In this document: in pieces, positions 11,930 through 56,975 of the stretch
Layout: every line of letters begins with the position of its first letter
Position numbering within the stretch: position 1 is the stretch's first letter
NCBI GenBank assembly: GCA_037179385.1
Contig: CM074187.1
Location: 50,316,879-50,380,878 of the forward strand
Origin: Holothuria scabra
Taxonomy: Eukaryota > Echinodermata > Holothuroidea > Aspidochirotida > Holothuriidae
Reading direction: 5' to 3'
Length of the DNA stretch: 64,000 nucleotides
Program-made: the position numbers and the translations under genes
Notes under the pieces: model-generated
Told to the model about the DNA's origin: nothing
The model's database searches: none
The model's input: only the letters and a program-made list of their open reading frames with translations

Positions 11930-13560
11930 AGTAGCCTTCGTCTCAGATTTTTTTCAATTCAATTTCATAGAACTTTATTTCAGTCTTTCATATAGAGAAG
12001 TATGTAATGAATTATTTGTATGTACAGGGTACTGAAGAGACTGAGGAGTGACAACAAGAAGCTCCAGGGAGCTTATGTACGTTGACACCCCTTTACAGAG
12101 ACTTATATTCACAAAAAACAATTACCACAAAACACATATATAATACAGAAAAAGAAACACAAAAACACACATAAATGGAACAGATAGCAAAGAATTAAAA
12201 TAATTCAAAGGTAGTTGGTGATAAAATGATCTTTTAATCGCTTCTTAAATGTACTTAACAGTTTGCACTCTTGAAAATCATTGGGAAACGAGTTCTATAA
12301 TTTGGGACCATTATACCGAATTCCAAACTGGGAGGATCTAAGTCCAAAAAAGGTATTGTTATGTGGTTCCGATGTCGACAGGGGTAGGAATATGTGCCAG
12401 TACGCAATTCAAACTTAGTAAGTTTTAAATATTGACGGAAGTGAGTCACTTAACCAGTTGAATATGAAAATACCAGTATAATAACGATAAATATCATAAA
12501 TATTAAGGATATTGAGATTGGCAAAGAGAGGTTTTGTATATTGCAGATGGACTTCATTACAAATGTGGCGCAGAGCTCGCTTTTGAAGAATGAAAAGAGG
12601 TTGAATTCTAGAAGTATATGTGCTACACCAAATGACATTACAATAAGTAAAGTACGGAAGGATAAGGGTATTATACAAGGTAATTCTGCGAGGTAACAGT
12701 CCTCGAATCTCATTTAAAACTCCAACACCTCGTGAGACTTTCATACATACATGCTGGATGTGATTTTTCCATGTAAGATTCTTATCAATATAAACTCCGA
12801 GAAATTTGGTAGCATCACAAAAAATAACTTTAACACCACAAAAGTGGACACAATCTATGTCTGCACTGAGATACTTGGATGGTGAACGGAATACAATAGC
12901 AGTAGTCTTCTTTACTTATTTGTTTGCATAAAACCAGTTTTGTATATAGACAAAATCATTTTGAATATTACGTATCAGATCTTTAATATCATAGCTAGAA
13001 TGAAAGAGGCTTGTATCGTCAGCATATGAGGTTATACTGAAAGTATCACTGGCTGTGTGAAGGTCGTTGACATAAATAATAAAAAGCAATGGCCCTAATA
13101 TAGATCCTTGAGGGACACCATATGAAATTGACTTAGAGACCGATTTAATGTTATTAATAACCACAAACTGACGACGATCAGTCAGGTAGCTTCTAAACCA
13201 ACCCAGAACATTACCACGGACGCCGTAGTACTCAAGCTTATTAAGTAAAATATTATGGTCAAGAGTATCAAATGCCTTCGAAAGATCAAGAAATATGCCA
13301 GAAGCAAAATGATTCTTTTCGAAGGCTTCCATTACTTTATTGGTAAAGTGTAAAATAGCATGTACAGTGGAATGACCAGGACGAAAACCAAACTGATAGT
13401 CGTAAATTAATTTACGTTTCTCAAGATAGGAATGTAATCTTGAGAACATAAGTTTTTCAATTACTTTTGAGAAGCATGGGAGGACAGAAATAGGTCTATA
13501 CTGATTATGTAGGTTGTATAAGGGTAAAGGTTCCAAAGTTTGTGGTAATTCTAGAAAAAC
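11930..13560 (-). mobile_element. 5'-truncated non-LTR (LINE) retrotransposon
   Basis: The minus strand carries the reverse transcriptase region of a LINE, then the post-RT C-terminal region, then a 3' tail. The 5' end (near 13555) cuts into the protein upstream of the first RT motif, so the endonuclease half is missing. The 3' end is near 11930-11960, where a T-rich stretch on the + strand represents the A-rich tail. It abuts a MITE-B fragment at 13588-13767. Confidence 0.8.
12415..13536 (-). pseudogene. Broken LINE reverse transcriptase (Jockey/CR1-like)
   Basis: The frame from 13536 shows successive RT motifs: 'QYRPISVLPCFSKVIEKL', 'YQFGFRPGHSTVHAI', 'FLDLSKAFDTLDH', 'GVPQGSILGPLLF' and the catalytic 'SYADDT'. 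A single in-frame TAA (12916-12918) interrupts it, and the same frame then resumes with 'KFLGVYIDKNLTWKNHI', the usual post-RT region, on to 12415. A frame change near 12430-12450 is needed to continue into the last 60 codons (to 12255). The protein would have copied the element RNA at a nicked target. It is now inactive through the stop, the frameshift and the 5' truncation. The clade assignment (Jockey/CR1 group) is from motif style only. Confidence 0.85.
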
Positions 13561-27400: not shown

Positions 27401-30400
27401 GTTTTTGGGTGATGGCCAAAAGTCATTGGGGTTAAAGGTGCAAATTATGCCTTACCTTGGGACTACCTTAATACAATATCATCTTTAATGCAAGGAACCA
27501 TAGTGCCCTTGGGCTCTTGTTTTGATTGTATTTTTTATTTTCTGCAGTTGCTCATTATTGCCTTTGTCTGAAGCTTTCCCTATGAATTTTAGCTGTCTCA
27601 AAGATGGTAAGATGTATCGTTGGTGAAAGAACTGCCCCATCCTGCATCACTGGGATGTGGATTTGCTGATTCTTTTGGTTTAAAGGCCGGCAAGAGCAGT
27701 CACCCCAACTTGAAGTAGTGTAGTAGTAGTAGACTGTCCTGTTTCATGATTGGCTGTTGGGAGTCTTGTGACAACAAATTTTCTCTTCAAATGTGAGATT
27801 TACTAGAAATAACAGCTTCTCTTCAAATGTGAGGTTTACTAGAAATAACAGCTTGGTTTGCTTTGATTATGCAATATTGAATGAAACATAATTTGAAGAG
27901 AAATAAGAAAATTGTGATATTTAGCTGGTGCTTTCAAAATAAGTTTGGAGGGACTCCTGTTGACTTTTAGAGAGTTGATTTTGTCTTAACTTCTGTCAAT
28001 TTCAGGTTGTCTAGTACATTTTGGTACCTTAGAAAGGTTTAAAATTTGTTTCTTTTTAATTTCAGAAGAAAGAAAGAAACACTTGAAGGAGGCAGAAATT
28101 GTGGTAGCAAAGCCTTTACACTTTGTAGATATTGTAGATAATGTTCCAAACTTAAAATGGGTCCATTTTACCTATGCAGGTAATTTTATCATCAGCATGA
28201 ATTAGGCTTCATTTGTGTAAAATGTTATAAGAGGCAACATATTTGGGTATTTACATTTCAGAAGGTTGGTATAGAAACAAAACTAGTAGTGCTTAAGTAA
28301 TCTAATCTTATTAATTAATTCTGTAGCAGTGCCATAGGGTAGACTTCTGGTTAGTGTTGGGGGATATACCCAATTTTACTATTATTACAATAATTTTTGC
28401 TTGACACGATATGATGTTAACAATGGAAACATGACAATAACTTCTTGCGAAAAAGTGTGAAAAAAGTATGATGTCTATTTTTCTTCTTCTTTCTGTTTGT
28501 TGTTTTCTTTGTATTTTCTCATTTGCAAATTTTTATCTTTACCTTACAGTACACTAATCTCACAGTAGTGCCAGGAAAGCACCTGCATTCTGTCACCATT
28601 TTCATTCACTCTTTTTAAGTGACTGCTCTGGTTCCGCACTCTCTTAGTCTACTTAGAGTAGAGGAAACTTACATGAAATGTTTCAGGAAAATAATTGTTG
28701 TTATCGTATTATTGGATAATTTTTTTATGATTATAGTAAGGATTAAAAGTGAATATTGCCCAACACTCCTTCTGGTATTTATAGACCAATTTGTTTCCAT
28801 GACGTATACAGGATATGAACCATTTGCAAATCTCATCAAACAAACAGAAAAAGTCCCACCTTATAAAGTGACAAGGCAAGGTGGCACATTTGGAGTAGCT
28901 ATGGCAGAATATGTGCTGGCTTATATTATTGCAAAAGAAAGGAAGTTTGAAGAAATCCGAGAAGATGGGAAAGTGAAAAATTGGTAAGGAATTACTTCTT
29001 ATTGTCGAATATAAGTAATATTGAGTCTCATTTGTAACAGATATATCACGAGTAACAATTTAGTAAAGACTCAGATGTCATATCCAATCTCCGTCTTCTG
29101 GTATCTTGTTTTAAAGGGCTAATCCTCTCACCCTAAACCACAATTTTTGTAGTAGTCCACAGAAATTTTCAATTGGCAAAGCTCTTTGATTGAAAGCAAG
29201 TTCAAAAAATGCAGAGTACCAAAGTTCATACTACACAGTATGTACAGCACCCTACAGAGTGTGCTTTGATTATACATGAGGGTCTTATTTGCTCACCCTG
29301 AAGCAATTAACTAAGATTGTGGCTGAATTAATATGAATTTTAGACAGTTGTGGGAGCTTAAGTAAGTAGGTAAGCAGAATTTTAACTGTTGGAGGTAAGA
29401 GGGTCAGGTCTTTAAATTAGCTGGATACCTTGTGTAGTTGGTTGAGTCGTACTATCATGTCAGTTTATGAACAGAACCAAGTTTTGGCTAAAGGGTACAC
29501 CTGCTTTGGAAAATTTTTCCTCAGGATGGGGTCTACATGCAAAATGATAGTATCATTTTCGTTTCTCCAGTATGTTAATACACTAAAAATGACCACTTTT
29601 GTGGAAATATAGACTTCAGCAAAAACATATGGTGTTAAGTGTATGGATGGCACAATAGAAAGTCTTGAAAATAGGAACTTTACATGTGAGTGAACGAGGT
29701 TACCATGGTGTCTGCTCCGTGTGTTTAATGGTCTGGCCCCACTCCAATTACTTTGTGATCAGATATGCTTTAAACAGTCCGCTATCAAGAGAAGTCAGTC
29801 TGGTCTGCAGGTTGCAGTCATGTCAGTGCTCTCTATCACTGGCAAAATGCAGTGTGCACTTGAATGAAATTAAGGAATAAAACATGTCCCTATCTGATAG
29901 TGTGTGTTCAACCACAAGTGTATGCCTATGGCTGCAGGCAGTGGCAGGAGAGCAGACCACTAGTGTGTGCCTGTGGCTGCAGATAGGGGTAGGAGAGCAG
30001 ACCACAAGTGTATGCCTGTGGCTGCAGATAGGAGTAGGAAAGCAGAACACACATGCCTGTGGCTGCAGATAGGCGTGGGAGAGCAGACCACAAGTGTTTG
30101 CCTCTGACTGCAGATAGGGGTAGGAAAACAGACTACAAGTAATTGCCTGTAGCTACAGATAGGGGAAGGAGAGCAGACCACAAGTGTATGTCTGTGGCTG
30201 CTGGAAGGGGTAGGAGAGCAGACGACAAGTGTATGCCTGTGGCTGCAGATAGGAGTAGGAAAGCAGAACACACATGCCTGTGGCTGCAGATAGGGGTGGG
30301 AGAGTAGACCACAAGTGTTTGCCTTTGGCTGCAGATAGGGGTAGGAAAGCAGACCAAAAGTAAATGCCTGTGGCTACAGATAGCGGTAGGAGATCAGATG

Positions 30401-33400
30401 ACAAGTGTATGCCTGTGGCTGCTTGCAGGGGTAGGAGAGCAGACGACAAGTGTATGCCTGTGGCTACAGATAGGGGTAGGAGAGCAGACCACAAGTGTAT
30501 GCCTGTGGCTGCAGATAGGAGTAGGAAAGCAGAACACACATGCCTGTGGCTGCAGATAGGCGTGGGAGAGCAGACCACAAGTGTTTGCCTCTGACTGCAG
30601 ATAGGGGTAGGAAAACAGACTACAAGTAATTGCCTGTAGCTACAGATAGGGGTAGGAGAGCAGACCACAAGTGTATGTCTGTGGCTGCTGGAAGGGGTAG
30701 GAGAGCAGACGACAAGTGTATGCCTGTGGCTGCAGATAGGAGTAGGAAAGCAGAACACACATGCCTGTGGCTGCAGATAGGGGTGGGAGAGTAGACCACA
30801 AGTGTTTGCCTTTGGCTGCAGATAGGGGTAGGAAAGCAGACCAAAAGTAAATGCCTGTGGCTACAGATAGGGGTAGGAGATCAGACGACAAGTGTATGCC
30901 TGTGGCTGCTTGCAGGGGTAGGAGAGCAGACGACAAGTGTATGCCTGTGGCTTCAAATAGGGGTGGGAGAGCAGACCACAAGTGTATGCCTGTGGCTGCA
31001 GATAGGAGTAGGAAAGCAGAACACACATGCCTGTGGCTGCAGATAGGAGTGGGAGAGCAGACCACAAGTGTTTGCCTCTGACTGCAGATAGGGGTAGGAA
31101 AACAGACTACAAGTAATTGCCTGTAGCTACAGATAGGCGTGGGAGAGCAGACCACAAGTGTTTGCCTCTGACTGCAGATAGGGGTAGGAGAGCAGACGAC
31201 ATGTGTATGCCTGTGGCTGCAGATAGGAGTAGGAAAGCAGAACACACATGCCTGTGGCTGCAGATAGGGGTGGGAGAGCAGACCACAAGTGTTTGCCTTT
31301 GGCTGCAGATAGGGGTAGGAAAGCAGGCCACAAGTAAATGCCTGTGGCTACAGATAGGGGTAGGAGATCAGACGACAAGTGTATGCCTGTGGCTGCTTGC
31401 AGGGGTAGGAGAGCAGACGACAAGTGTATGCCTGTGGCTACAGATAGGGGTAGGAAAGCAGACTACAAGTGTATGCCTGTGGCTGCAGATAGGAGTAGGA
31501 AAGCAGAACACACATGCCTGTGGCTGCAGATAGGGGTGGGAGAGTAGACCACAAGTGTTTGCCTTTGGCTGCAGATAGGGGTAGGAAAGCAGACCAAAAG
31601 TAAATGCCTGTGGCTACAGATAGGGGTAGGAGATCAGACGACAAGTGTATGCCTGTGGCTGCTTGCAGGGGTAGGAGAGCAGACGACAAGTGTATGCCTG
31701 TGGCTACAGATAGGGGTAGGAAAGCAGACTACAAGTGTATGCCTGTCGCTGCAGGTAGCAGTAGGGGGAAACAGACAATAGATAAGCTGCATTGTTAACT
31801 ATAAAATTAAGTCTTTGTGATATCATTCATCTCCTTGTTTACATGCCAAGGAATGCATTTGTTTATTCACAGGAGGGAAAATTACTTCAGTCGGTTCCGA
31901 GTGTTGTCTCAACTTACCATTGGCATTGTTGGAGCTGGTGATATTGGCTGTGAAGGTATTGTGAGTCGTGCTCAGTTATGAAAATGTTGCTCAGTTTTCA
32001 TTATGTGATACATCAGTAGAACAGAATAATGTAACAACTTCATCACTACTTAGTTGATTGCATCTTAAAATATTTTGGAGACTTCCTACCAGAATAGTAA
32101 CTGTTTAGTAATTTACCAGTGGGAGAATGGGCAGAGGATGGGACATGACCCCCCCCACTTCAACTTGTGATTGAGCGATCTGCAGATGAAATTCCATCTA
32201 TCACTTAGTTACCATTGAGTTCCACTTGTCAGTTTGGGCAGAAGCATTTTGTTTCCAATGGTGCATTACTATCGATTCAATTTTGAAAATGTAGCATCAT
32301 TTAAACATTTGAAAAATGATTTTTTTTTTTTCTTTTTTGAAAATTAAGGTCACCCATTAACTATATTTTAATTTCAATATCTTCCATGTATTATTTATAA
32401 ATAAATTTGTGAATGTGTTAGGAACCTTTGTTTTTTATATATTAAGGGTGTCAATTCTCATCCCAAAGTACAGTTTCTGTAGTAGTCTACAGAAATTCTC
32501 AATTGGCACAGCTCTTTGATTAACAGCAAATTCAACTGTGAAAAAAATTATTACACAGCATGCAATTACTGACAGTGTTTAGATTACACATTTGGTCTTG
32601 TATACTGTTACCTTGAAGCAATAAACTGAGATTATGTCTGGATAAGGATGAGTTTTAGATAATTGAGAAGTGGAACTGTTTGGGGTGAGAAGATTTAGCC
32701 TTTAATGTAATGTTTTCCATAAAGCTGACTACTGAGAGTTTCCATTATCTGTGTGTTATTTTTCAGTTGCTAGATTATGCAAAGCATTTGGAATGAGAAC
32801 AATTGGCCTGGTTAGAACACCAAGGTCACAAGAAACTAGGTCAGAGTACATTGATGAATACAGGTGAGTTCTAACTGTATCAAAAATAAGTAGCTGCTTG
32901 ACTGTAGTTTTAATTACTGTGATTAAGACTGGACCTAATGCATATGACATTTCAGAGCAAAATCCATTCCCCCCCCCCGCCCTTCATGTGTATTGCTGCT
33001 AGTTACATAAACAAATGTATAGATATAGCTTACTCTTCAACCAATGGGATGTATTCTAAAGTCAGCTACATATGGTGGGGGGGGGGGGGATTTTCCTGCA
33101 TGCCAAACATGCTTGTTGTTCCCTTCCAGAAGTATATCGGTCTAAAATGAGGGAAGTATAGACCTATTACCAAAGGAACCATCTGATGGTGAGACTTGTC
33201 AGGGATTACTGGAGAGCAAACATCATCGTTCTTTTCATTTCTTTAGTTGCATCTAACACAAAACTTGCTCATAATCTAGTTTTGTTGAGATTTTGGATAA
33301 TTTACAGTAGTCATCTGTGGGCCAGGTTAACAACAGAATTATATACATTAAGGTTGGTTGGTGACCCCCAGCAATGGCTGAATAATGTGACCATCACTTG

Positions 33401-36400
33401 CTTGTTTGGATAGATCTATAGCAACAAGCTCAACCCAGTAGCGTGCTTGAAGGGGGACCAAGGGGGAACAGGCCTCCCACCTTCGAAGTCAGTTGGGGGA
33501 AATCACTCAGTCCGGGGGTTTACGGGTTCGAAGAAGAGGAAAAGTTTGAAGAGACACACTGAGCATTCAAACCGTAACCACACACCAGCCCCTTTTGGGG
33601 CAGAAAAATGGTTGTCAAAGCAAAAAAAAAAGGTCCTGGAAAAATTGGATAGGACAAGTATGCCGATGTAAGTCAGTTACCAACAGCTGAAGTGCAGAAA
33701 AGAAAAAAAATTATCAGTTTCCATGCAAGTGGGGAGGATCACTGGTTCTGCCCCCCACCTTCGAAATCCTGCACACACCACTGGCTCAATTACTAAGTCA
33801 TTCTGTATATTTTAAGCTCATTTGAGGCACATGCTATAGTATGTTAGGGTTGAGTTGCTTGAAAGGCAGCCCTACTGCAGCCCTACTGACAGTCTGACAC
33901 ATGCAAACTCTGTTTGTTGCAGTGATGTGGGAAAGAAAACTTAGATTGGTTGTTCTTTGGAGGCTCACCGTCATGGAGCAACCTTTGGCACTGAAAAAAA
34001 TTTGCATTTTTTGTTTGTTTGCACATACCAGACTAGAGCTTCTTTTCAATTTTCACCTCCATAGTAAAGTTTCTCATTGGAACTTTGCTTTAGGTTTTTA
34101 GTGAGGGAGCTAGGGAGTTTGTTTAGGGGTCGAGAATGTCCTGCAGGAGCATGACTGTTGCTGACTGAAGCTGACTGTTGAAAAACTGACAAGGGTACTG
34201 ACAGGCAACTTTGGTCCATGGGGGGGGGGGGTTGCTTCCTTCGACCACATGAGTGCTCTGTCCCTGCAGGTGTGTGTATACCACCTTTATTAGCACCTGT
34301 GCATACAAATTCATGAAAAACTGAGCCATTAATAGTAGCTCAAATCTTTTGTTAGTTAAAATAATGACTGCCGCTAGAAATGTGTGAGGAGCAGTTTAAT
34401 GTTTACTAAATGAAGTTTTTCATATAATGCTAAAGGAAAGTTATTCAATTGTCAGATGCAGGGAAGAAATTTATGGTCAATTGGATTAAATGGTATGACA
34501 ATGTCAGCATTCTTCATTACAGGCTTACATCAGATCTACCATACATGTTAGCAGCGAGTGATGTCATTTGTAATATACTTCCCAGTCTACCAGAAACTAA
34601 GAATTTTTTTCATGAAAATACATTTCAGCATTGTACCAAGGTAATCCTTTGTCAGTATATACAAAATGTGGTTAGTAAAATATATCAGAATTTATATCAA
34701 GTTCATAGAATGGAGGAAGTTGGTTAAGTACTATAAAACCAATATTTTAATGAGCAGCTTTACTCCTGTATCTCTGTTCTACCAAGGGTATGGTACTGTA
34801 CAGCTGGGGCAGTCCTTACATACTTTTTCTTAAGTCCTCCCAACCCTCTGGCAAAGGGCCATTCAGCAAAACCAGACTTTAAAGTTCTCCCCTAAGAAGC
34901 TTTATGTCCACTGAAGCACAACATTTGACCAACCTCACGGCCCTCACACCATTTACATCATTGGTCTGTCATGTATGGCTACATTCTAGACTGGATGAAA
35001 AGAATAGATACTACACAAGATCTTAGCCAAAAGGCAGAGAAGCAATCCTGCAGTCCTTACATAAGGGACCTTGGATAAGGCACAATCTGCATAGTGCAAT
35101 CCACTGCATAGACTTGAAAATGGCAGCTGGTATTACAACTTGACAGCAAATACATATTAGAGACATGTAAATGAGCTCTTAAAGGGAAATATTGTGTTAA
35201 AAATGCTCCAAAAAAGAGTACAAAGATAATGGCTCAGACACTATCCAACATTTCAGTTTTAATCCTAAACCTCAGGAAATAGCTACATCTCTTCAAAATA
35301 CTATGTGCGAGAAGAACCATGGACATTGCATTATTTGAAATGTTGAAAGTTTGGTTAAAGGCATATTTTCATCATCCCAAGCAGTTCCAATTCTTCCAAT
35401 CTACTTACTTCTAGCCCCTCCCACATTTATCTAAAACTCATCTTTATCCAGACACAATCCTAGTTTATTGCTTCATGGCTTGCCCCAGTGGCCATATTAG
35501 TCCATAATGTGTAATCAAGGCACTCTCAGTGCCCATGCTGTGTAATTTAGCTATGATGCATTGTTTGAATGTGATGCCAATCAAAGAGCTGTACCAATTG
35601 AGAGTTTTGATTTATGCATACTGAAACTGTAGTTTGGGGTGATGAATGACTGCCTTTAAACAAATTATTCTTGAGCAACAAACAACTGAGTTTCTATACA
35701 TGGGAAACTTATTTCTTTAAAAGAAGGTTACCATACTACCTTATTTTTGACAATCTATCAACCTGTTTCAATGAATAGTAGTTTTAAGGATGAATTTTTC
35801 TTGCAAAACAAACACAACATTTCCCTTTAAACCTGTTTTGGTGTGTACAAATTAGAGAAATTCATAGTGTGCACAATTCAGCTTAAAGCAGCAATCATAA
35901 TTTGTTTTTACAATTTTGTCACAACTTAAGTTCTGCACTTCATTTGTACGTTGACTTAAAACTAAGAAAAAATGATCCCTGATCATAGTCTAACATCATG
36001 ATTCGTTAAAGTGTAGTGGAGTCTGTCTAGTCGTGCATCTGTGTGGAATTTTGTTATCATACATATATTCAGAAATTTCGTTTAACAGTAATTAACTCAA
36101 AGTTAACAAATTTTTCTTCTAATGTGAAAGACCTCTTAAATGTTCCTATATTCTGGTTAACAATCAGCACAGAAGGGCAAACAAGGTGCTGGAACAAAAA
36201 GGTTAATATTTTCTGTCAAACTCTGATTGTCCCTTTAACTTAATATTTTGTTACTTATTGGAATGCTAACATCAGTTTTGAATATGAGAAAAAGAAGTAA
36301 AGGGGGGGTGGGAGTAGGGGATTCATTCAAGCCAAGCAGTTTTATGCATTTATTAGTCTCGTATTCATTTGTCACATTTAGGCGTGTTGCAATGGGTGTT

Positions 36401-39400
36401 TCAGTACTTTTATTCCTGGATTCATTAAACTGTATAAATGCAGACAATATTTATCTCTTGAACATTTTGCTTTCTTAGAATCCAGATATGAAACATCATT
36501 ACAATGCAAGAAATTAAACACTTAAACACAAACAATATTTTTCATTACAGAAACCACTATTTATAAATATTGGTCGAGGAGATTGTGTGAAGGAGAGCAC
36601 CATAGTCAAAGCTATAGAGTAAGGTACCATTTTGAATTCATTTTGTAGTTTCAGGTGTAAGATTATAACTTAATCAAGGATTCTGTAAAGAATTGCTAGA
36701 ATACCAGCAACTCTTTTTCTGGGCCCAGTCTGACTCGAGCCCTGCATCAAAGCAGAGGGGGCTTTGAATGAGGGAAGTGGCCAAGTCATGGTCCCTATGG
36801 GGTAAGATGTTGGCCCCAAATTTGTTGATAAAGGTATAGACTCTGACAAAGGCGAATGAACCTGATGATCTTCGTTATGCTCCTGAAGGTAGCTTTCTTC
36901 ACACTTGTTAAATTAAGTTGGCATATTTAAGTTGCATGATAATGTCTGCTAATGACACAATTTCTGTCAGTACCATGCATATTCATTATTTCATAAGGTC
37001 TACATAACATGGACATGTCCTTTGAAGTTTAAAACCATGATTAATCTAAAATAGCCCCCTGTGATTCTCTGCTTTCTCTTATCAGCTAGCAGGAAGATTT
37101 TCTGCTTCAGGTAGCAGAACAATAGATTTTCTTATCTTTGCTTAAGTGTGGGGTGACTTCCAGCTGTATTTTGTAATTGATACTAATCCAAATGCCTGAT
37201 TTGTTGGGGATGTGGTTAAAGCATCTGTCTTTCTGTATAAGTAGTCAGTCAAATCATGGAAGTACTACCTCGGAAAATTATGACAACATTGAGAAAGAAG
37301 AAGATGTGAGTGGAATGTCTGTTTTGAATTTTGCAACAAGTAATTTTGCTAATTTTAGATTTTAATTTACACTGTAATTACATTTTTTCTGTCAGTGCAT
37401 GGATATTCATAAGGTCTATAAGTCATCATGTTCTAGTGGTCAATCAGACTATGATGGCACTGAGGAATAAAATGTGAAGATGCAAGTTGAATGCCTGTTT
37501 TAAATTTTGCAACAAATTATTTGCAATTGTAGATATTAAGTTAATAACATTTGTTTTTGGTTTCGATGATAAGAAAAACCTATGCAATCATGATGGCGTG
37601 TGTATGTATATGTGTATGTGTGTGTGTGTGTGTGTTTGTCACACTTTGCTTGTTAGCACGATATCTCAAGATAGGAATGTCTGACAGTTTTCAAACTTGA
37701 TACATGGATGTGCCAAATTGAGAGGAAGAACCCTATTGTTTTTGGCGGAGGTCAAAGGTCATCTGGGGTCACCAGGGGTCAATTTCTGAAAACTTTGTTA
37801 GCACAATATCTCAAGATAGGAAACTTGGATAGATTTCATATTTGGTATGTGGATACCTTATGGTCAGAAGACGGTCCCATTGTTTTTGATGGAGGTCAAA
37901 GGTCATGTGGGGTCACCAGGGGTCAAAGTCTGAAAATCTTATAATTTCAAGATAGGGAACTTGGATAGATTTCATATTTGGTATGTGGATGTGTTATGGT
38001 CAGAAGATGGTCCATATTGTTTTCGGTGGAGGTCAAAGGTCATCTGGGGTCACCGGGGGTCAAAGTCTGAAAATCTTGTCAACACAATATCTCAAGGGAG
38101 GAAACTTGCATAGGTTTCATATTTGGTTTGGGGATGCGTTATGGTCAGAAAATGGTCCTTATTGGTTTTTGGTGGAGGTCAGAGGTCATCTGGGGTCACC
38201 ATGGGTCAAAGTCTGAAAATCTTAGTAGCATGACATTTCAAGGTAGGGAACATGGATAGATTTCATATTTGATGTGTGGATGTGTTATGGTCAGAAGATG
38301 GTCCCTATTGTTTTCGATGGAGGTCAAAGGTCATCTGGGGTCACCGGGGGTCAAAGTCTGTGAATCTTGTTAGCATGATATTTCAAGATAGGGAACTTGG
38401 ATAGATTTCATATTTGGTATATGGATGTGTTATTGTCAGAAGATGGTCCATATTATTTTGCGTGGAGGTCAAAGGTCATCTGGGGTCACTGGTGCTCAAA
38501 GTCTGAAAATCTTGTCAACGCAATATCTCAAGGGTGGAAACGTGGATAGATTTCATATTTGGTTTGGGGATGCATTATAGTCAGAGGATGGTCCCTATTC
38601 GTTTTGGTGAAGGTCAGAGGTCATCTGGGGTCACCAGGGGTCAAAGTTTGAAAATCTTGTTAGCACAATATTTCAAGGTAGGGAACTTGGATAGATTTCA
38701 TATTTGATATGTGGATGTGTTATTGTTAGGAGATGGTTCATATTGTTTTTGGTGGAGGTCAAAGGTCATCTGGGGTCACTGGGGGTCAAAGTCTGAAAAT
38801 CTTGTCAACACAATATTCAAGGGAGGAAATTTGAATAGATTTCATATTTGGTTTGTGGATGCATTATAGTCAAAGGATGGTCCCTATTGGTTTTGGTAAA
38901 GGTCAAAGGTCATCTGGGGTCACCGGGGAGTTAACAATATCTCAAGGTAGGGAACTTGGATAGATTTTATATTTGGAATGTGAATTGGTTAAAGTTAGGA
39001 GATGGTCCCTACAGACATGCCAAGTATCTTGATTTAGGTGGAGTAATTACCATTTCCACCCTCGATTCTGCAATTACGAATATCCTCCAAAAATTGCTCT
39101 TTTCACACGTTAAGGATCTTTGTTGAAATCTCAAAGTGTTTAGCTCCCTTAACTGAAAAGTTCAGGCCAAAATTGTATGGTTGGATTGAGCAAGTGGGCT
39201 AGTACTTTCTGCCTAGGCTTAACGTAGGCCTGAGTTAGGCCTAGCCAACGCTACATCTTTCACAAAGCAGAATCGAGTACTGAAAATGATCAACAGATAT
39301 CCACTTGGCCAAGAACATAAAAAATATTTAAAAGGCATTGGTAAAAAACCCTTATACAACAATCTGCAGTACTTTTGTGAGCTTTAGGTGTAAAGTTTTT

Positions 39401-46863: not shown

Positions 46864-46894
46864 GCTTGTACACAGCTCTGCTGGCAACAGTGCT

Positions 46895-47070
46895 TGTAAA
46901 TGACGTCAGCTTGTGCGCACGTTGCGCGTTGTTTTTATTTTCTAAGCTTCTTGTTGTTTATGACGTCACAATAACTTCGCTTGTGCGAAGTTATTGTGAC
47001 GTCATAAACAACAAGAAGCTTAGAAAATAAAAACAACGCGCAACGTGCGCACAAGCTGACGTCATTTACA
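46895..47070. repeat. Perfect 86-bp inverted repeat made of LTR start
   Basis: 46895-46980 equals the first 85 bases of the LTR at 52647 plus one base. 46985-47070 is its exact reverse complement, and the loop is TTGT. Four CRE octamers TGACGTCA lie in it (46901, 46961, 46997, 47057). The normal 5' LTR would continue for about 465 bp more; instead the sequence turns back into the reverse complement of the 3' end of the element. Confidence 0.95.
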
Positions 47071-47162
47071 CTCCCTCCTGTAAAATTACAAATATTTTAC
47101 ACATGTAGTCGTGAAATTAACCAAATATAATTTGAAACAAATTTAAATTCCTTTAGTAATAA

Positions 47163-47999
47163 CTACTCAGAGGCCTTTTGTACCACACACAATTTTGTGA
47201 TCGGCCTTCTTAGTAACTTGGTACGGACCTTGACTTCAACACTTCTTACTTTCCCGTCATTGCTTTTGAAAACGTTTGACACTCTTGCTAAAGGCCATTT
47301 TCCACGCGGAATAGTTTCATCAGTTAATAGTACTAAGTCACCAATTTTGACGTTTTCTTTGGGGGTATTCCACTTATTTCGTTTTTGGAGGAGAGGAAGA
47401 TATTCCTTTCGCCATCTTTTCCAAAACAGGGATGCAAGATATTGCACCTGCAACCACCTTTTTCGACCATAAGATTCTTCTGTGTTCACCGGGCTGTCAG
47501 GCCCCCCTCTCATTAATAAGAGATGGTTTGGAGTAAGAGGCTCCTCGTCCTTTGGGTCTTACGAGAAGTCAGTTAGAGGCCTAGAGTTGAGAATTGATTC
47601 AACTTCAGCGAGAACAGTAGTCAGAACTTCATCGGTTACTACTTGTTGTCTCAGAACGCCACGAAGAATTCTTCTGACTGACCTGATCAGTCTTTCCCAA
47701 GATCCCCCAAAATGACTCGCGGTGGGTGGATTAAAATGCCACTCGCAGCCTTTACCATGGAGAAATGCTTCAACATCGTCTTTATTCATTGCTTTGAAGG
47801 CATTTCTCAAGTCTTTTTCACCAGCTATGAAATTTGACCCATTATCACTGTACAACCTTTCTGGTTGTCCCCTTCTTGCCACAAAACGTCTGAAAGCATT
47901 TAGAAATGAATCGGCGTTTAGGGATTCTGACACTTCTAAATGGACGGCCCTAGAGGATAAACAAGTAAATATACAACCGTATCTTTTAACGGTGGAACG
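47163..47999 (-). pseudogene. BEL/Pao integrase fragment (inverted arm)
   Basis: This is the reverse complement of 51718-52554, which encodes the integrase core after its first Asp region and the C-terminal domain. It shows 'YSDNGSNFIAGEKDL', 'PPTASHFGGSWERL' and the C-terminal 'WRKEYLPLLQKRNKW' (DUF5641-type). A single base change turns a Ser codon into TAA at 47559-47561 (the intact arm has TCA). It breaks off at 47999, in the middle of 'RSTVKRYG', and joins a tRNA-like sequence. Near-identity of the arms implies a recent duplication or ongoing gene conversion. Confidence 0.88.
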
Positions 48000-48033
48000 G
48001 AAGACCGGGGTTCGATTCCCCGCCGGGGAACCA
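48000..48033 (+). other. Mature-tRNA-like 3' half ending in CCA
   Basis: The sequence GACCGGGGTTCGATTCCCCG forms a 5-bp T stem with TTCGATT loop, followed by CCGGGGA, a discriminator A and CCA. It resembles tRNA-Asp 3' halves. Animal tRNA genes do not encode CCA, so this looks like a copy of a mature tRNA. Retrotransposons prime with tRNA 3' ends, but the match is longer (about 34 nt) than a usual 18-nt primer site, and no LTR end precedes it. It sits at the junction between inverted integrase and gag-protease. Confidence 0.7.
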
Positions 48034-48047
48034 GAGAGCGTGAGTGG

Positions 48048-50080
48048 CCGTCGCTCGCAAGTAAAGTTGTCGATTTTAAGATCTCCTTGGCTCTTTTGTC
48101 TTGAACAGATTCCCCTTCGCCAAACCCTTTATCATCTACTGACCAAGACCTTTCAAGAAAATCTAAAATTTCCCCGTTTGAGCAACAAGAAAGTCGATGA
48201 AATTGTTTTCGGTCGCTGCGATCGCTAAATCCACCAGGTCCCATTACAGACCAGCCAAGAGGGGTTTTGACCGCATATGGATCTCCCGAGCTGCCGCGCT
48301 TCTCTTCCTTAACCCAGAATGCTTCGGGAACATCAGCACCGATGAGAAGACCGAGTTCGTATCCTGATATATCTTTCCACGGAATGGATTTCAAATGCTG
48401 CCAACCTTCAAGATCTCGCGCTGAAGGGACGCTATCACCACTGTATGGTAGATCAGGAATGGAAAGAATATTAACTGACAATTCGTCAGTTTCATTTTCA
48501 CCCTTGACAGTGATATCAAATGTCAAACCGGTTCTAGTTTTATCTCCATTGATTGTCGTCGACGTATACGACTTAGATTTCCCTTTAATGCCTAACTTGC
48601 GTCTAAGGGATTCACTGCATAGACTGGTGTCCGAACCACTATCTAGCATAGCGAGAGTATTAACTCTATTACCGTTCTCCGCAGTCACTGTAACTGGGAG
48701 GATTCTCAAGAAAACTTTGCCACCCAAAACAGCAGTGTTTGAAGTAACTGGCGCATTTTCGGTTTGGGGCGGTTCATGAAGCATAGTGTGGTGCCTGTTA
48801 GACTGGCAATACGAGCACACTGCATCCCGTCGGCATTTAGCAACCGAATGACCTGGAAATAGGCACTTATAACACAGTCGCTTTGTCTTAACAATATCTA
48901 GTTTCTGGTCATAGGACATACTAGTTAACAATTCACAGTCAAAAACCTTGTGTTCACCATCACATGCAAAACACTTTAATGATTTACCTTTCACAAAGTT
49001 GACCTTCACACGGGGTTTCTCCTCTTTTGAAACTCCACACAATTTACCTACATTCCTACCAAACATATTACACGAAACTTCCGCTTGACTTTCCAAATAT
49101 ATAAGTAAGTCTCTGAACTGCGGTTCCCTCGTTTGAAGAATACCTTGAGCTGTTTGAGCCCACCCTGTCTGAAGGTAAATAGGTAACAGACCTTGTATCT
49201 TTAGAAGATTACTCGTAGCATTTAAGTCATTAACATACCCCATTTGTGTTAAGGTAACATAACACCTTTGCATGTAGGATATAAGATCCCATAGGCTTTC
49301 TCCATCATTAGCCTTTACAGGTTTGCGATTAACCATGTTATTCATCAAAGAATTCAGAATAAGATGCGGTTGACCGAACTGCCGCTTCAAAATTGACTTC
49401 GCGCGCTCGTAACCTTCACCGCCTAGAAGCGTACAACTTTCGATACAAGAACGCGCTTTTCCTTTACACAGCTGTAGGAGATATTGAAGGCGCGCAGCGT
49501 CATCACTTAGCTTACTGGCTACGTTGATTTCAAAATTAGAAATGAAAGACCAGTAATCAACTGGGTCTCCATTAAACTCAGCTATTTCAGCCTTTGGTAA
49601 TTCAAGCGCTAACTTAAGTTCGTTGAAACCGAAATATCTTTCAGTCTGATTGTCGGGAATAGGCCTAAATGTAGGCCTAGCCCTATCTAAAATCGAACGG
49701 CCCTGACGTACATTAGAGTCGTTATATTCACTAAACCTACTATCAACTTGATTGTCAATTACATTACCCACATTTTGGTCATAATTTGCATCATAGAAGA
49801 CATCATTCTGTCGGCCGACTGTCTCTTCGGTCCAGCCTTGACTCCCTGTGTTACTGTTCTTTTCATTGTTCGTTTTCTCTGTATTACTGTTTTCTCCGTC
49901 ACCGCTGGAGTTCACTTCCGATACGACATTTCGTTTACTCATAAGTCCATTTAAGTACTTTTCTACTGCGATTCTTACCGACAGGTACCTATTCTCTACA
50001 TCAGCCATCCACTCCTCTTCACACTCAAATCTCCCTCCGTCTTCTACAGCCTCGACTACGGCTTGATGAGCTGACTCCAC
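48048..50080 (-). pseudogene. BEL/Pao gag-protease and RT start (inverted, truncated)
   Basis: An open frame of about 680 codons, with order: N-terminal Asp/Asn-rich segment; gag domain (DUF1759-type) with 'LPKAEIAEFNGDPVDYWSF' near residue 160; three Cys/His knuckles near 370-440 ('CFACDGEHKVFDC', 'CYKCLFPGHSVAKC', 'CSYCQSNRHH'); aspartic protease (DUF1758-type) with active-site 'AMLDSGSDTSLC' near 477-488; then 'KTPLGWSVMGPGG' and 'EILKSTTLLASDGH', the first residues of the RT domain. It stops being homologous exactly where RT should begin its fingers. The 5' end is also cut: a stop lies directly upstream of the first GTG codon at 50080 and no natural start remains. Gag would package RNA, and protease would cleave the polyprotein. 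Confidence 0.85.
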
Positions 50081-50090
50081 TCACGCTCTC

Positions 50091-51009
50091 CCCGCAGCAA
50101 GTCTGATTGTTGAGCGTCTAAGAAACATTTTGCGCAAAGGTGGCTTTAGACTTACCAAGTGGATAAGTAATAATCGTGAGGTTTTGGAGAGCATCCCGGA
50201 ATCTGAAAGAGGGCCAAATATTCCCAGCAGCCTAGAAACCCTTCCTATAGAGAGAACACTAGGAGTTAGTTGGAACGCCGAAAACGACAATTTCGTGTTT
50301 CAAGTGTCACTGCCTGATAAACCCTTCACGAGAAGAGGGTTACTTTCTGTTTCAAGTTCGATTTTTGACCCCTTGGGTTTCGCAGCTCCTTTTATTCTCA
50401 TTGCACGTTCTCTTCTGCAAGCGGTGTGTCGTAAGGGTTCAGACTGGGACATGCCCCTAACAGACGAAGAACTCGCGACGTGGAAAGAATGGCTTCAAAA
50501 TGTTTCTTTGCTTTCCTCTGTTAGGATTCCTAGGTGGCTAAAATTGAGTAAGTCACAACGCGTTCAACTTCACATATTTTGTGACGCGTCTCAAAAGGGG
50601 TATGCTGCTGTGGCATATCTGCGCGCGGTAAATTGTGACAACGAAATTAGTTGTTCATTCGTTCAAGGTAAGGCAAAGGTAAGTCCGATGAAATCCATAT
50701 CAATTCCGAGACTCGAACTGATGGCTGCCGTTCTTGCAGTAGAATTGTACGCGATAATTAAACGAGAGATAAAATTTGACGTTGATGACACAATGTTTTG
50801 GACAGACTCTATGATTGTGCTTGGATACATCCGTAACGAAGAAAAACGTTTCAAAACGTTCGTTGCTAATAGAGTCTCCAAAGTTCGTGAAAGTTCTTCT
50901 CCAAATCAGTGGAGACATGTGGGTTCAAAGGAAAACCCAGCCGATCATGGGTCAAGAGGTACTCATGATTTAGCGATGTGGCTTTCAGGACCAAAGTTCT
51001 TGCTACGGG
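50091..51009 (+). pseudogene. BEL/Pao RT tail and RNase H
   Basis: An open frame that begins mid-domain with 'SLIVERLRNILRKGGFRLTKW', the segment just after the RT catalytic YxDD motif, which itself is absent. Next come 'RRGLLSVSSSIFDPLGFAAP' (Pao-type, Peptidase_A17 family), the RNase H-like segment 'VQLHIFCDASQKGYAAVAYL', 'SIPRLELMAAVLA', 'FWTDSMIVLGYI' and 'NPADHGSRG'. It ends at the junction sequence GGGGAGAGCGTGAGTG. Together with the gag-protease block it shows that about 300 residues of RT are deleted. Confidence 0.88.
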
Positions 51010-51019
51010 GAGAGCGTGA

Positions 51020-52554
51020 GTGATGGCCGCAATCGAAATTTAATGAAATCGAATTGTCTGGGGATCCCGAGGTTAAAAAATCTGTTTTTCTTAACATAAC
51101 TACCTCAGTCGCTGACCATTTTTTCGAGGGGTTAACGTCAAAGTTCTCGAGCTGGCCCAAGTTGGTCAAAGTTCTAGCCTGGATTCTTCGCTTCGTTAAT
51201 AGGTCTAGACGTGTATTGTCGAGTTCTACAAAAAAATCTGTCCTTATCGGAAATTGAGACAAGTGAAACTACAATACTTAAGTGGGTCCAAAATTCAGCA
51301 TTCAAGTCTTGGCAGAGCGACCAGCGGTTAGTAAAACTCAAACCCGTAGTTGTGGGAGATTTACTCAGAGTAGGCGGTCGCCTCGATTATGCAAATGTAA
51401 ACAATGACGTCAAACATCCAATTATTCTACCCTCTAAAGGTAATGTAAGCACTCTTATTATAAGACATTACCATGGAAGCGTAGGTCATGGTGGTTTGGC
51501 CATGACATTGAGTGCGATTCGTCAAAGATTTTGGCTTCTAAATGGTCGAACAGCAGTCAAAAGTGCACTAAGTAAGTGTGTTCTATGCCGTTAGTTAATT
51601 GCAAGGCCAGCTCAGCAGGTAATGGCTGCCCTCCCCCTAGAGAGAGTTTCATCAGACAAACCCCCGTTTAGTTTTGTTGGCGTTGACTTCTTTGGGCCGT
51701 TTGAGGTGAAAAGAAGTCGTTCCACCGTTAAAAGATACGGTTGTATATTTACTTGTTTATCCTCTAGGGCCGTCCATTTAGAAGTGTCAGAATCCCTAAA
51801 CGCCGATTCATTTCTAAATGCTTTCAGACGTTTTGTGGCAAGAAGGGGACAACCAGAAAGGTTGTACAGTGATAATGGGTCAAATTTCATAGCTGGTGAA
51901 AAAGACTTGAGAAATGCCTTCAAAGCAATGAATAAAGACGATGTTGAAGCATTTCTCCATGGTAAAGGCTGCGAGTGGCATTTTAATCCACCCACCGCGA
52001 GTCATTTTGGGGGATCTTGGGAAAGACTGATCAGGTCAGTCAGAAGAATTCTTCGTGGCGTTCTGAGACAACAAGTAGTAACCGATGAAGTTCTGACTAC
52101 TGTTCTCGCTGAAGTTGAATCAATTCTCAACTCTAGGCCTCTAACTGACTTCTCGTCAGACCCAAAGGACGAGGAGCCTCTTACTCCAAACCATCTCTTA
52201 TTAATGAGAGGGGGGCCTGACAGCCCGGTGAACACAGAAGAATCTTATGGTCGAAAAAGGTGGTTGCAGGTGCAATATCTTGCATCCCTGTTTTGGAAAA
52301 GATGGCGAAAGGAATATCTTCCTCTCCTCCAAAAACGAAATAAGTGGAATACCCCCAAAGAAAACGTCAAAATTGGTGACTTAGTACTATTAACTGATGA
52401 AACTATTCCGCGTGGAAAATGGCCTTTAGCAAGAGTGTCAAACGTTTTCAAAAGCAATGACGGGAAAGTAAGAAGTGTTGAAGTCAAGGTCCGTACCAAG
52501 TTACTAAGAAGGCCAATCACAAAATTGTGTGTGGTACAAAAGGCATCTGAGTAG
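51020..52554 (+). pseudogene. BEL/Pao RNase H end and integrase
   Basis: The first part (to about 51230) encodes 'FNEIELSGDPEVKK' and 'KLVKVLAWILRFVNR'. A frame shift at a run of seven A's (51230-51236) leads into the integrase zinc-binding region, with 'IIRHYHGSVGHGG' and 'SKCVLCR'. A TAG stop follows (51592-51594). The same frame continues with the catalytic core: 'FVGVDFFGPF' (first Asp), 'LYSDNGSNF' (second Asp), 'ASHFGGSWERL' (Glu, about 49 residues later), then a C-terminal domain 'KIGDLVLLTDETIPRGKWPL'. The enzyme would insert the cDNA. One stop and one frameshift make it inactive as written. Confidence 0.88.
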
Positions 52555-52637
52555 TTATTACTAAAGGAATTTAAATTTGTTTCAAATTATATTTGGTTAA
52601 TTTCACGACTACATATGTAAAATATTTGTAATTTTAC

Positions 52638-52646
52638 AGGAGGGAG
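52638..52646 (+). promoter_or_regulatory. Polypurine tract of BEL/Pao element
   Basis: AGGAGGGAG lies directly before the LTR start TGTAAATG. Plus-strand synthesis is primed here in LTR elements. The same tract occurs in reverse beside the hairpin at 47071-47079. Confidence 0.75.
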
Positions 52647-53196
52647 TGTAAATGACGTCAGCTTGTGCGCACGTTGCGCGTTGTTTTTATTTTCTAAGCT
52701 TCTTGTTGTTTATGACGTCACAATAACTTCGGTTGTTGAGCACAAGCGGACATTGCGCGTTGTTTCGATTTTCTCCTTAATTTAAGCGCATTTAATTTGA
52801 ATTGATTTATTGTTATGACCGTTAATCGTTACCTGATCGTCAAGCTGATTAGACCTAATAAGACCATCAAAGGTTCATGTGAGTAATTGTTAATGATTTC
52901 GTAAAGTTAAATTTAGGATAATCAATTGCTAATTGAATATAATCAAACAATTGTAATATTTTGTAATTGTGAACTGATTAAAGATAAGTGGTTATTTCTG
53001 TTATTCCTATTTTCATTAATGTATTGTTTGTTTCTACATTCAGTCACCAGACAGACATGATTTGAGGATTTTAGTTGTGGACACAGATTTAGTGATTTGA
53101 TATGGACCACAGACGTTACGAAATAGATTGTTGAATATAGAACTTGTCTGCGTGAAATGTTTTTTGATGGTCTTAATAAATTCGGAGGAATTTACA
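52647..53196 (+). repeat. 3' LTR, 550 bp
   Basis: It starts TGTAAATGACGTCAGC and ends GGAGGAATTTACA. It carries two CRE octamers TGACGTCA (52653 and 52713) near its start, and an AATAAA at 53175-53180. It is followed by the target duplication GTGCT. Confidence 0.88.
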
Positions 53197-53201
53197 GTGC
53201 T

Positions 53202-55979: not shown

Positions 55980-56975
55980 ATGGAGGAGTCTTCCTTTGAT
56001 TTTGATTTCAGTTTTGCAGAAAATAACCTTGCAGAGATGCAGGACATCCTGGAAGACATGGAAGAATCACTGAAAGAGAGTCACATACCTTTTGGAGAGG
56101 AGAGTATGGCTCCAAAGAAAAGTTCTGATGTACCTCATGAACATAACTATGCTTTCAGGGCCAAGAGAGATGACCCACTTTGGTCTCAGCATGTCCCCAT
56201 GGCAAGCACTCAGAATAGTGACCAACGAATCAATAAATGTTTGATGGAAAGTGACACCAGTGTTCTCAGTAAAGAAGATGAAGAATGGGCAGATCAGTTT
56301 TTAAATTTTAACAAGCAAGGTGACTCTTCAAACTCTTTGACAGGCAATTCCCATTCTGAGCCTCAACAGCAGCTGTCATCTCTATCATGTACACAGAACC
56401 CTATACATACTTCAGTAGTGGCTAGTACAAAGAATTCAACAAAGTCTTTAGCAGTGGATAATTCACCAGATAGTACCATATCATCTACCTCAAAGAAAAA
56501 CAGAAAAAGGAAGATATCAGGGAATTCAAGTTATTCAACAGAATCAGATAATGTAACTGTATTGGACAGAAATACCAAAAATGCCATCGCTGCCAGGGAG
56601 AACAGACTAAAAAAGAAACAATATATAGAAGGATTAGAAAAGAAAAACCAGGAACTTGAAAAGGCTAATAAAGTTATGCAAGATAAGACTGAGGAACAGG
56701 AGGAGAGAATTGATAATCTAGAACGAGAGGTTGCATACCTCAAAAATATACTCCACAACCAGAGTGCATTGTCATCATTACTCGGAAATCTTGATCCAGA
56801 TGCTGGCGTGAGGCTCTCTATTTCAGGACAAGGGGGCAAGCGGAGGCGAGGTGGTGGTGGATCTAAGGAGGTAATACCCATGAGTAAAGGGGTGTGTTTG
56901 CATGTTGATGGGCAAACTGCTTCATTGGAGTTTTGTTCCCTTTGTGCCATGAAGGCAAAAGGAGGATCTATATGA
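55980..56975 (+). CDS. CREBZF: CREBZF/Zhangfei-like bZIP transcription factor
   Basis: A 331-residue protein from one coding exon. The start ATG follows an acceptor at 55938, so only the 5' UTR is split off. The N-terminus is acidic. EHNY at residues 54-57 fits the HCF-1 binding motif (D/E)HxY, found in CREBZF and its CREB3 relatives. A basic region at 197-215 ('RNTKNAIAARENRLKKKQYI') leads into a leucine zipper to about 255. An LxxLL-type 'LSSLL' follows the zipper, then a Gly/Arg patch. The C-terminal 'GVCLHVDGQTASLEFCSLCA' (about 304-323) is a strong match to the Cys-containing tail of vertebrate CREBZF. CREBZF is a nuclear regulator that works mostly as a partner of other bZIP factors and HCF-1. 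It is complete, with no break. Orthology is clear from basic region plus tail. Confidence 0.9.
   Translation: MEESSFDFDFSFAENNLAEMQDILEDMEESLKESHIPFGEESMAPKKSSDVPHEHNYAFRAKRDDPLWSQHVPMASTQNSDQRINKCLMESDTSVLSKEDEEWADQFLNFNKQGDSSNSLTGNSHSEPQQQLSSLSCTQNPIHTSVVASTKNSTKSLAVDNSPDSTISSTSKKNRKRKISGNSSYSTESDNVTVLDRNTKNAIAARENRLKKKQYIEGLEKKNQELEKANKVMQDKTEEQEERIDNLEREVAYLKNILHNQSALSSLLGNLDPDAGVRLSISGQGGKRRRGGGGSKEVIPMSKGVCLHVDGQTASLEFCSLCAMKAKGGSI

Follow-up and report, generated by a model that had tools for sequence, protein, structure and literature searches.

A Scrambled BEL/Pao Retrotransposon Copy in Holothuria scabra and Its Probable Origin by Template Switching Before Integration

Introduction

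The DNA analyzed here, referred to as the window, is a stretch of 64,000 nucleotides (C9:50316879-50380878) of the 1.19-Gb Holothuria scabra genome, which is assembled in 31 contigs. Between window positions 46895 and 53196 it contains an LTR retrotransposon with the borders of an ordinary insertion and an interior out of order. The question raised by this locus is at which stage, and in which molecule, the interior was rearranged. Our preferred reading, to which we assign a probability of about 80%, is that repeated template switching of the reverse transcriptase scrambled the cDNA of a BEL/Pao element and that the product, now a young insertion, was integrated in the normal way.

Results

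Identity and Segment Map of the Element

The copy at 46895-53196 is a scrambled derivative of a BEL/Pao LTR retrotransposon and not a canonical member of the group. It encodes the Pao-type protein set of Peptidase_A17, DUF1759, DUF5641 and integrase, with matches to PF05380 (E 1.6e-49), PF03564 (2e-9), PF18701 (9e-32) and PF17921 (7.6e-10); additional matches to PF00665 (3.3e-6) and PF13650 (1.8e-4) fall under the Pfam cut-offs. The outer LTR termini (TGTAAA at 46895, TTTACA at 53196) and the identical GTGCT flanks, which form a 5-bp target duplication, could be read off exactly as an earlier note on this DNA had claimed. Two complete LTRs around a colinear gag-pro-RT-RH-IN region were not found at 46895-53196: the left LTR is reduced to 85 nt, gag-protease is inverted and the RT core is absent. 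The segments were mapped with four canonical copies as references (L009, L010, L011 and L012/L013), and all element coordinates are those of L009.

46890..46894: target duplication, left copy GTGCT
46895..46979 (+): S1, truncated left LTR, nt 1-85 only
46980..46985: J1, 6-nt filler CTTGTG, centre of a palindrome with 86-nt arms
46986..47999 (-): S2 (left arm), inverted C-terminal part of integrase, PPT and LTR nt 85-1; L009 6606-5593 reversed, 99.5%
47998..48033 (+): S3, tRNA-Asp(GTC) from linear position 40 to the 3' end, A for discriminator G, then CCA
48034..48050 (+): S4, short 17-nt piece GAGAGCGTGAGTGGCCG; L009 4888-4904
48043..50080 (-): S5, inverted gag-protease with DUF1759 and a weak aspartyl protease match; L009 3301-1264 reversed
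50077..50094 (-): S6, the short piece of S4, inverted; L009 about 4901-4884
50093..53196 (+): S7, colinear RT end, Peptidase_A17 region, integrase, PPT and full 3' LTR; L009 3971-7071, 99.26%
51021..51025 (+; placement ambiguous within 5 bases): private 3-bp insertion at the source site of S4 and S6
52647..53196 (+): complete 3' LTR
53197..53201: target duplication, right copy GTGCT

With the exception of the 6-nt filler, the base preceding CCA and the 3-bp insertion, the interior could be assigned completely to the element or to a tRNA, and no flanking host DNA was found in it. The inversion of gag-protease claimed earlier was confirmed at 99.07% identity to L009. The RT core is missing, as had also been noted: L009 3302-3970 has no counterpart in the scrambled copy, and part of this region belongs to a weak RVT_1 match (L009 3483-3971, 17.8 bits, E 0.0028, under the Pfam cut-off), while L009 3304-3552 gave no RVT_1 match. 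The mapping on L009 further revealed that the 5' leader and the start of gag are lacking. A separate reverse transcriptase fragment (RVT_1, 1.7e-29) lies outside the scrambled element at window 12916-13536 (-).

The stretch 51010-51022, listed in the earlier note among the internal junctions, turned out to be the element's own sequence in its native place, followed by the private 3-bp insertion. Copies of this short piece sit at the true junctions 48034-48050 and 50077-50094, so that one site was involved three times. The polypurine tract GGGGAGAG (L009 4885-4892) lies at this site. As 12 purine tracts were listed for the element, it may be no more than a candidate second plus-strand primer.

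Related Copies in the Genome

Canonical order was found in L009 (C15), L010 (C13), L011 (C6) and L012 with L013 (C20). These copies are about 97-99% identical to the segments of the scrambled copy, have the same LTR termini and, like it, are enclosed by 5-bp target duplications (ACCTA, AGGTG, CATTG and CAGCC, respectively); their segments stand in colinear order between two LTRs, whereas those of the scrambled copy do not. L012/L013 (C20:4225896-4239744) has kept its order and its CAGCC duplication in spite of deletions and a several-kb nested insertion which splits the left LTR. Since the scrambled copy shares its LTR termini with the canonical copies and has GTGCT on either side, it most simply entered the genome by ordinary integration.

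Two of the 12 interior-bearing loci found at 87% identity or more, a lower bound for the number of loci, are scrambled; the other ten are in canonical order, some of them truncated, deleted or with nested insertions. For the divergent loci at C1:74.89, C11:48.46, C11:49.85 and C21:14.03 Mb, canonical order was judged mainly from the order of the matches. The count covers neither matches below about 77% identity (e.g., C12:42.8 Mb) nor LTR-only loci. The second scrambled locus, L014 (C11:23634500-23637500), consists of LTR nt 1-120, an inverted 110-bp integrase piece and L009 6172-7071, in the same polarity as at 46895-53196. It has a CATGT target duplication of its own and microhomologies of 4 and 6 nt, and its LTR fragments differ at 4 of 120 positions. 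L014 is an older and independent scramble, and at both loci a single target duplication encloses the abnormal structure.

The arrangement of 46895-53196 itself is absent from the other 11 interior-bearing loci. A foldback family would be represented by several copies with the same junctions; only one copy was found, and the earlier suggestion of a multi-copy, non-autonomous foldback element is not supported. Two junction patterns were compared with the whole genome, and neither recurs at another copy: the J5/J6 pattern, with up to two mismatches allowed, and the tRNA-CCA pattern described below, with no mismatch allowed, were each found only once.

Inverted Arms and Timing

The integrase-to-LTR end had been described as doubled in 1-kb inverted arms without indels. 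This was borne out by 46986-47999 and 51718-52731, which are 1014 nt long each and differ by four mismatches and no indel, although the automated repeat search had given 100%. Chance is not an explanation for arms of this length. Over the 1003 sites that are comparable with L009-L012, each arm carries two private mutations and none is common to both; at every one of these private sites, the base in the four other copies is that of the opposite arm. The arm duplication is therefore not measurably younger than the copy. This timing bound is loose, since the mutation test also accommodates a scrambling event dated at up to about 70% of the age of the insertion. In the single-copy parts, private changes, determined against L009, L010 and L011 only, amount to 5/2015 and 5/1605, a similar rate.

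The Captured tRNA-Asp Piece

S3, which the earlier note did not recognize as tRNA-derived, is identical to tRNA-Asp(GTC) over 32 nt that begin at linear position 40 and end just before the discriminator; an A and then CCA come next. A 30-mer of this piece occurs at eight genomic places, namely in this copy and in seven tRNA-Asp genes on C16, C17, C20, C21 and C22, none of them on C9. All seven genes have G as discriminator and no CCA after it. The tRNA-CCA pattern GATTCCCCGCCGGGGANCCA is found without mismatch at a single genomic place, the scrambled copy, and with one mismatch at three places, which are two tRNA-Asp genes without CCA and the locus L038 with CCA. L038 was rejected as a CCA-ended tRNA as ARAGORN finds no tRNA there; likewise, a local tRNA gene was rejected for S3, where the program finds none. 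The piece is also not the element's own primer site: the longest match to the tRNA-Asp complement in L009 has 9 nt, vs. an average of 8.4 nt in random windows of host DNA, and the sequence directly after the LTR has no likeness to tRNA-Asp.

Nuclear tRNA genes of eukaryotes do not encode the CCA end. Because CCA is present here, a mature, CCA-ended tRNA-Asp was probably the template, that is, a molecule existing only as RNA; the agreement includes one mismatch at the discriminator base. For the A in place of G before CCA, one change must be assumed, either an error of the reverse transcriptase or a later mutation. If ACCA were filler, the argument for a mature tRNA would be lost.

Junctions

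The junctions are of mixed type. Shared bases amount to 4 nt at J5, to 8 nt at J4 and 9 nt at J6, with one mismatch each, and to 2 nt at J2; J3 is without microhomology and J1 carries the filler. At random junctions, 2 nt are shared in 16.8%, four exact nt in 1.9% and six in 0.16% of cases. Such a mixture of microhomology, its absence and filler suits template switching and repair equally. None of the internal junctions involves an LTR terminus; J1 falls at LTR nt 85.

Discussion

A Proposed Course of Template Switching

From the segment order we infer a course of events in the particle that would account for all segments. Ordinary minus-strand DNA would have been started at the right-hand LTR and extended normally via the LTR, PPT, integrase and RNase H region to L009 3971 (S7). 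The enzyme would next have switched to the short site near L009 4900 and made sense strand there (S6), and a further jump to gag would have been followed by sense synthesis through protease (S5). The enzyme would then have returned to the short site near L009 4900 and copied it in antisense direction (S4), before jumping to a mature tRNA-Asp that was not the primer, entering it at the 3' CCA end and copying it to about nt 40 (S3). After a jump to minus-strand integrase, sense synthesis would have continued into the LTR (S2), where snapping back at LTR nt 85 and further synthesis as far as LTR nt 1 would have produced S1. LTR nt 1 is the start of plus-strand strong-stop DNA, and run-off at this position would leave the U3 end blunt. 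Integrase could then insert the scrambled molecule, which had both its U3 and U5 termini, and generate the 5-bp duplication. Only in the proposed direction of synthesis would the tRNA itself be a template entered at its CCA end, and the same direction would supply both termini that integrase requires.

Against template switching stand J3 without microhomology and J2 with only 2 nt. In addition, the tRNA copy runs past A58 down to nt 40. Methylation at A58 usually halts reverse transcriptase, and HIV-1 reverse transcriptase is described as normally stopping at m1A58 of its primer and reading through if the methylating enzyme is mutated (PMC13191261); passage of this position would thus count against the reading. 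The presence of some cellular tRNAs in retroviral particles is mentioned in PMC5086612.

Alternative Explanations

The main rival is a rearrangement after insertion, in which repair of a replication-based or end-joining type that inserts templated sequence (MMBIR, polymerase theta) rebuilt the interior of a canonical element, while the outer LTR ends and the duplication were left in place. Microhomology, the reuse of small template pieces and short insertions are known traits of such repair, and several junctions with microhomology as well as one small site reused twice, with a 3-bp insertion, agree with it. The retained termini are likewise compatible with repair in situ, the same topology could be produced there, and the timing test leaves room for it. 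We nevertheless regard this explanation as unlikely: repair would have to acquire a CCA-ended tRNA sequence that is seen nowhere else in the genome and whose gene copies lie on other contigs, it would have to stay within the element borders twice, here and at L014, and no flanking DNA is present in the interior. The lack of any private mutation common to both arms also speaks against it.

An assembly artefact, i.e., a fold-back or chimeric read or collapsed copies, had been named earlier as a third possibility and is very improbable. The palindrome and the 1-kb inverted arms are difficult to assemble, but the arms carry independent private differences, with the four other copies siding with the opposite arm, which renders a mis-assembly or fold-back read unlikely. 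Moreover, the tRNA piece and S4/S6 are not explicable as fold-back products, the target duplication is intact and L014 represents the same structural class elsewhere. Integrase-driven autointegration of cDNA is a known process in retroviruses and retrotransposons (outlined in PMC2644782), but it joins LTR termini to internal sites, a connection found at none of the internal junctions, and has no way to supply a tRNA, so that we give it hardly any weight.

Of the earlier proposal of one insertion with a cDNA rearranged before integration, template switching is consequently the part that is best supported, by the CCA-ended tRNA, L014 and the arm mutations, and autointegration the part that is disfavored.

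Relation to Known Systems

Internal inversions or scrambled gene regions have been described in defective HIV-1 proviruses (PMC11219899, PMC9278108); one survey gives six internal inversions among 575 proviral genomes (PMC11219899). Such proviruses resemble the present copy as integrated LTR elements with an inverted or scrambled interior, a small class in HIV-1. They differ in that HIV-1 is a retrovirus in patients' cells, whereas the present copy stands in a genome assembly, where its target duplication, the captured tRNA and canonical sister copies can all be seen. Template-switched complex LTR retrotransposons were reported from Triticeae (Sabot and Schulman, 2007; PMC1950507). There, too, one 5-bp duplication enclosing an abnormal LTR element argues for an origin before integration; the Triticeae complexes consist of two elements with a common LTR, and the excerpted text of that report describes neither inversion nor tRNA capture. 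Retroviral deletions with inserted sequence, formed by intramolecular template switching within one replication cycle, are a further parallel (Pathak and Temin, 1990; Parthasarathi et al., 1995; as cited in PMC3187697 and PMC5086612), although these arose, by the citing accounts, in experimental vectors. Among the literature matches listed, none combined inversion, target duplication and tRNA in an LTR retrotransposon in its title or the beginning of its abstract. Given the HIV-1 inversions and the Triticeae elements, the scrambled copy would best be regarded as a variant of a known phenomenon, not as a new kind of element.

It is conceivable, if somewhat doubtful, that scrambled but integration-competent cDNA is a recurrent product of reverse transcription in BEL/Pao elements, arising by DNA-templated jumps, with CCA ends of non-primer tRNAs as acceptors and the U3 terminus rescued by plus-strand strong-stop run-off. 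If so, copies that retain only the first 85-120 nt of the left LTR, contain an inverted internal segment and are intact in their right half would form a general structural class (two of the 12 interior-bearing loci found here), which annotation geared to elements with two LTRs would have overlooked. Most of what is known about scrambled proviruses comes from infected cells, in which the timing and the molecule of the rearrangement are difficult to tell. A genomic copy which retains its target duplication, sisters for the mapping of junctions and a tRNA whose CCA marks an RNA template is an unusually readable record of the scrambling steps. Its signature, a left LTR reduced to a short stretch of U3, an inverted piece, an intact right half and a captured small RNA, is searchable, and such searches in genomes could reveal how frequently LTR elements integrate scrambled cDNA.

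Other Features of the Window

An open frame of 331 aa that contains a bZIP domain (PF00170, 2.1e-7) is located at window 55980-56975 (+), about 2.8 kb downstream of the insertion. Long tandem arrays occupy window 29911-31765 (periods of 221-487 bp) and 37731-38928 (145-436 bp). A U2 snRNA match at window 34880-35046 (-) scores 46.6 vs. the Rfam gathering score of 46 and is perhaps a pseudogene or diverged copy.
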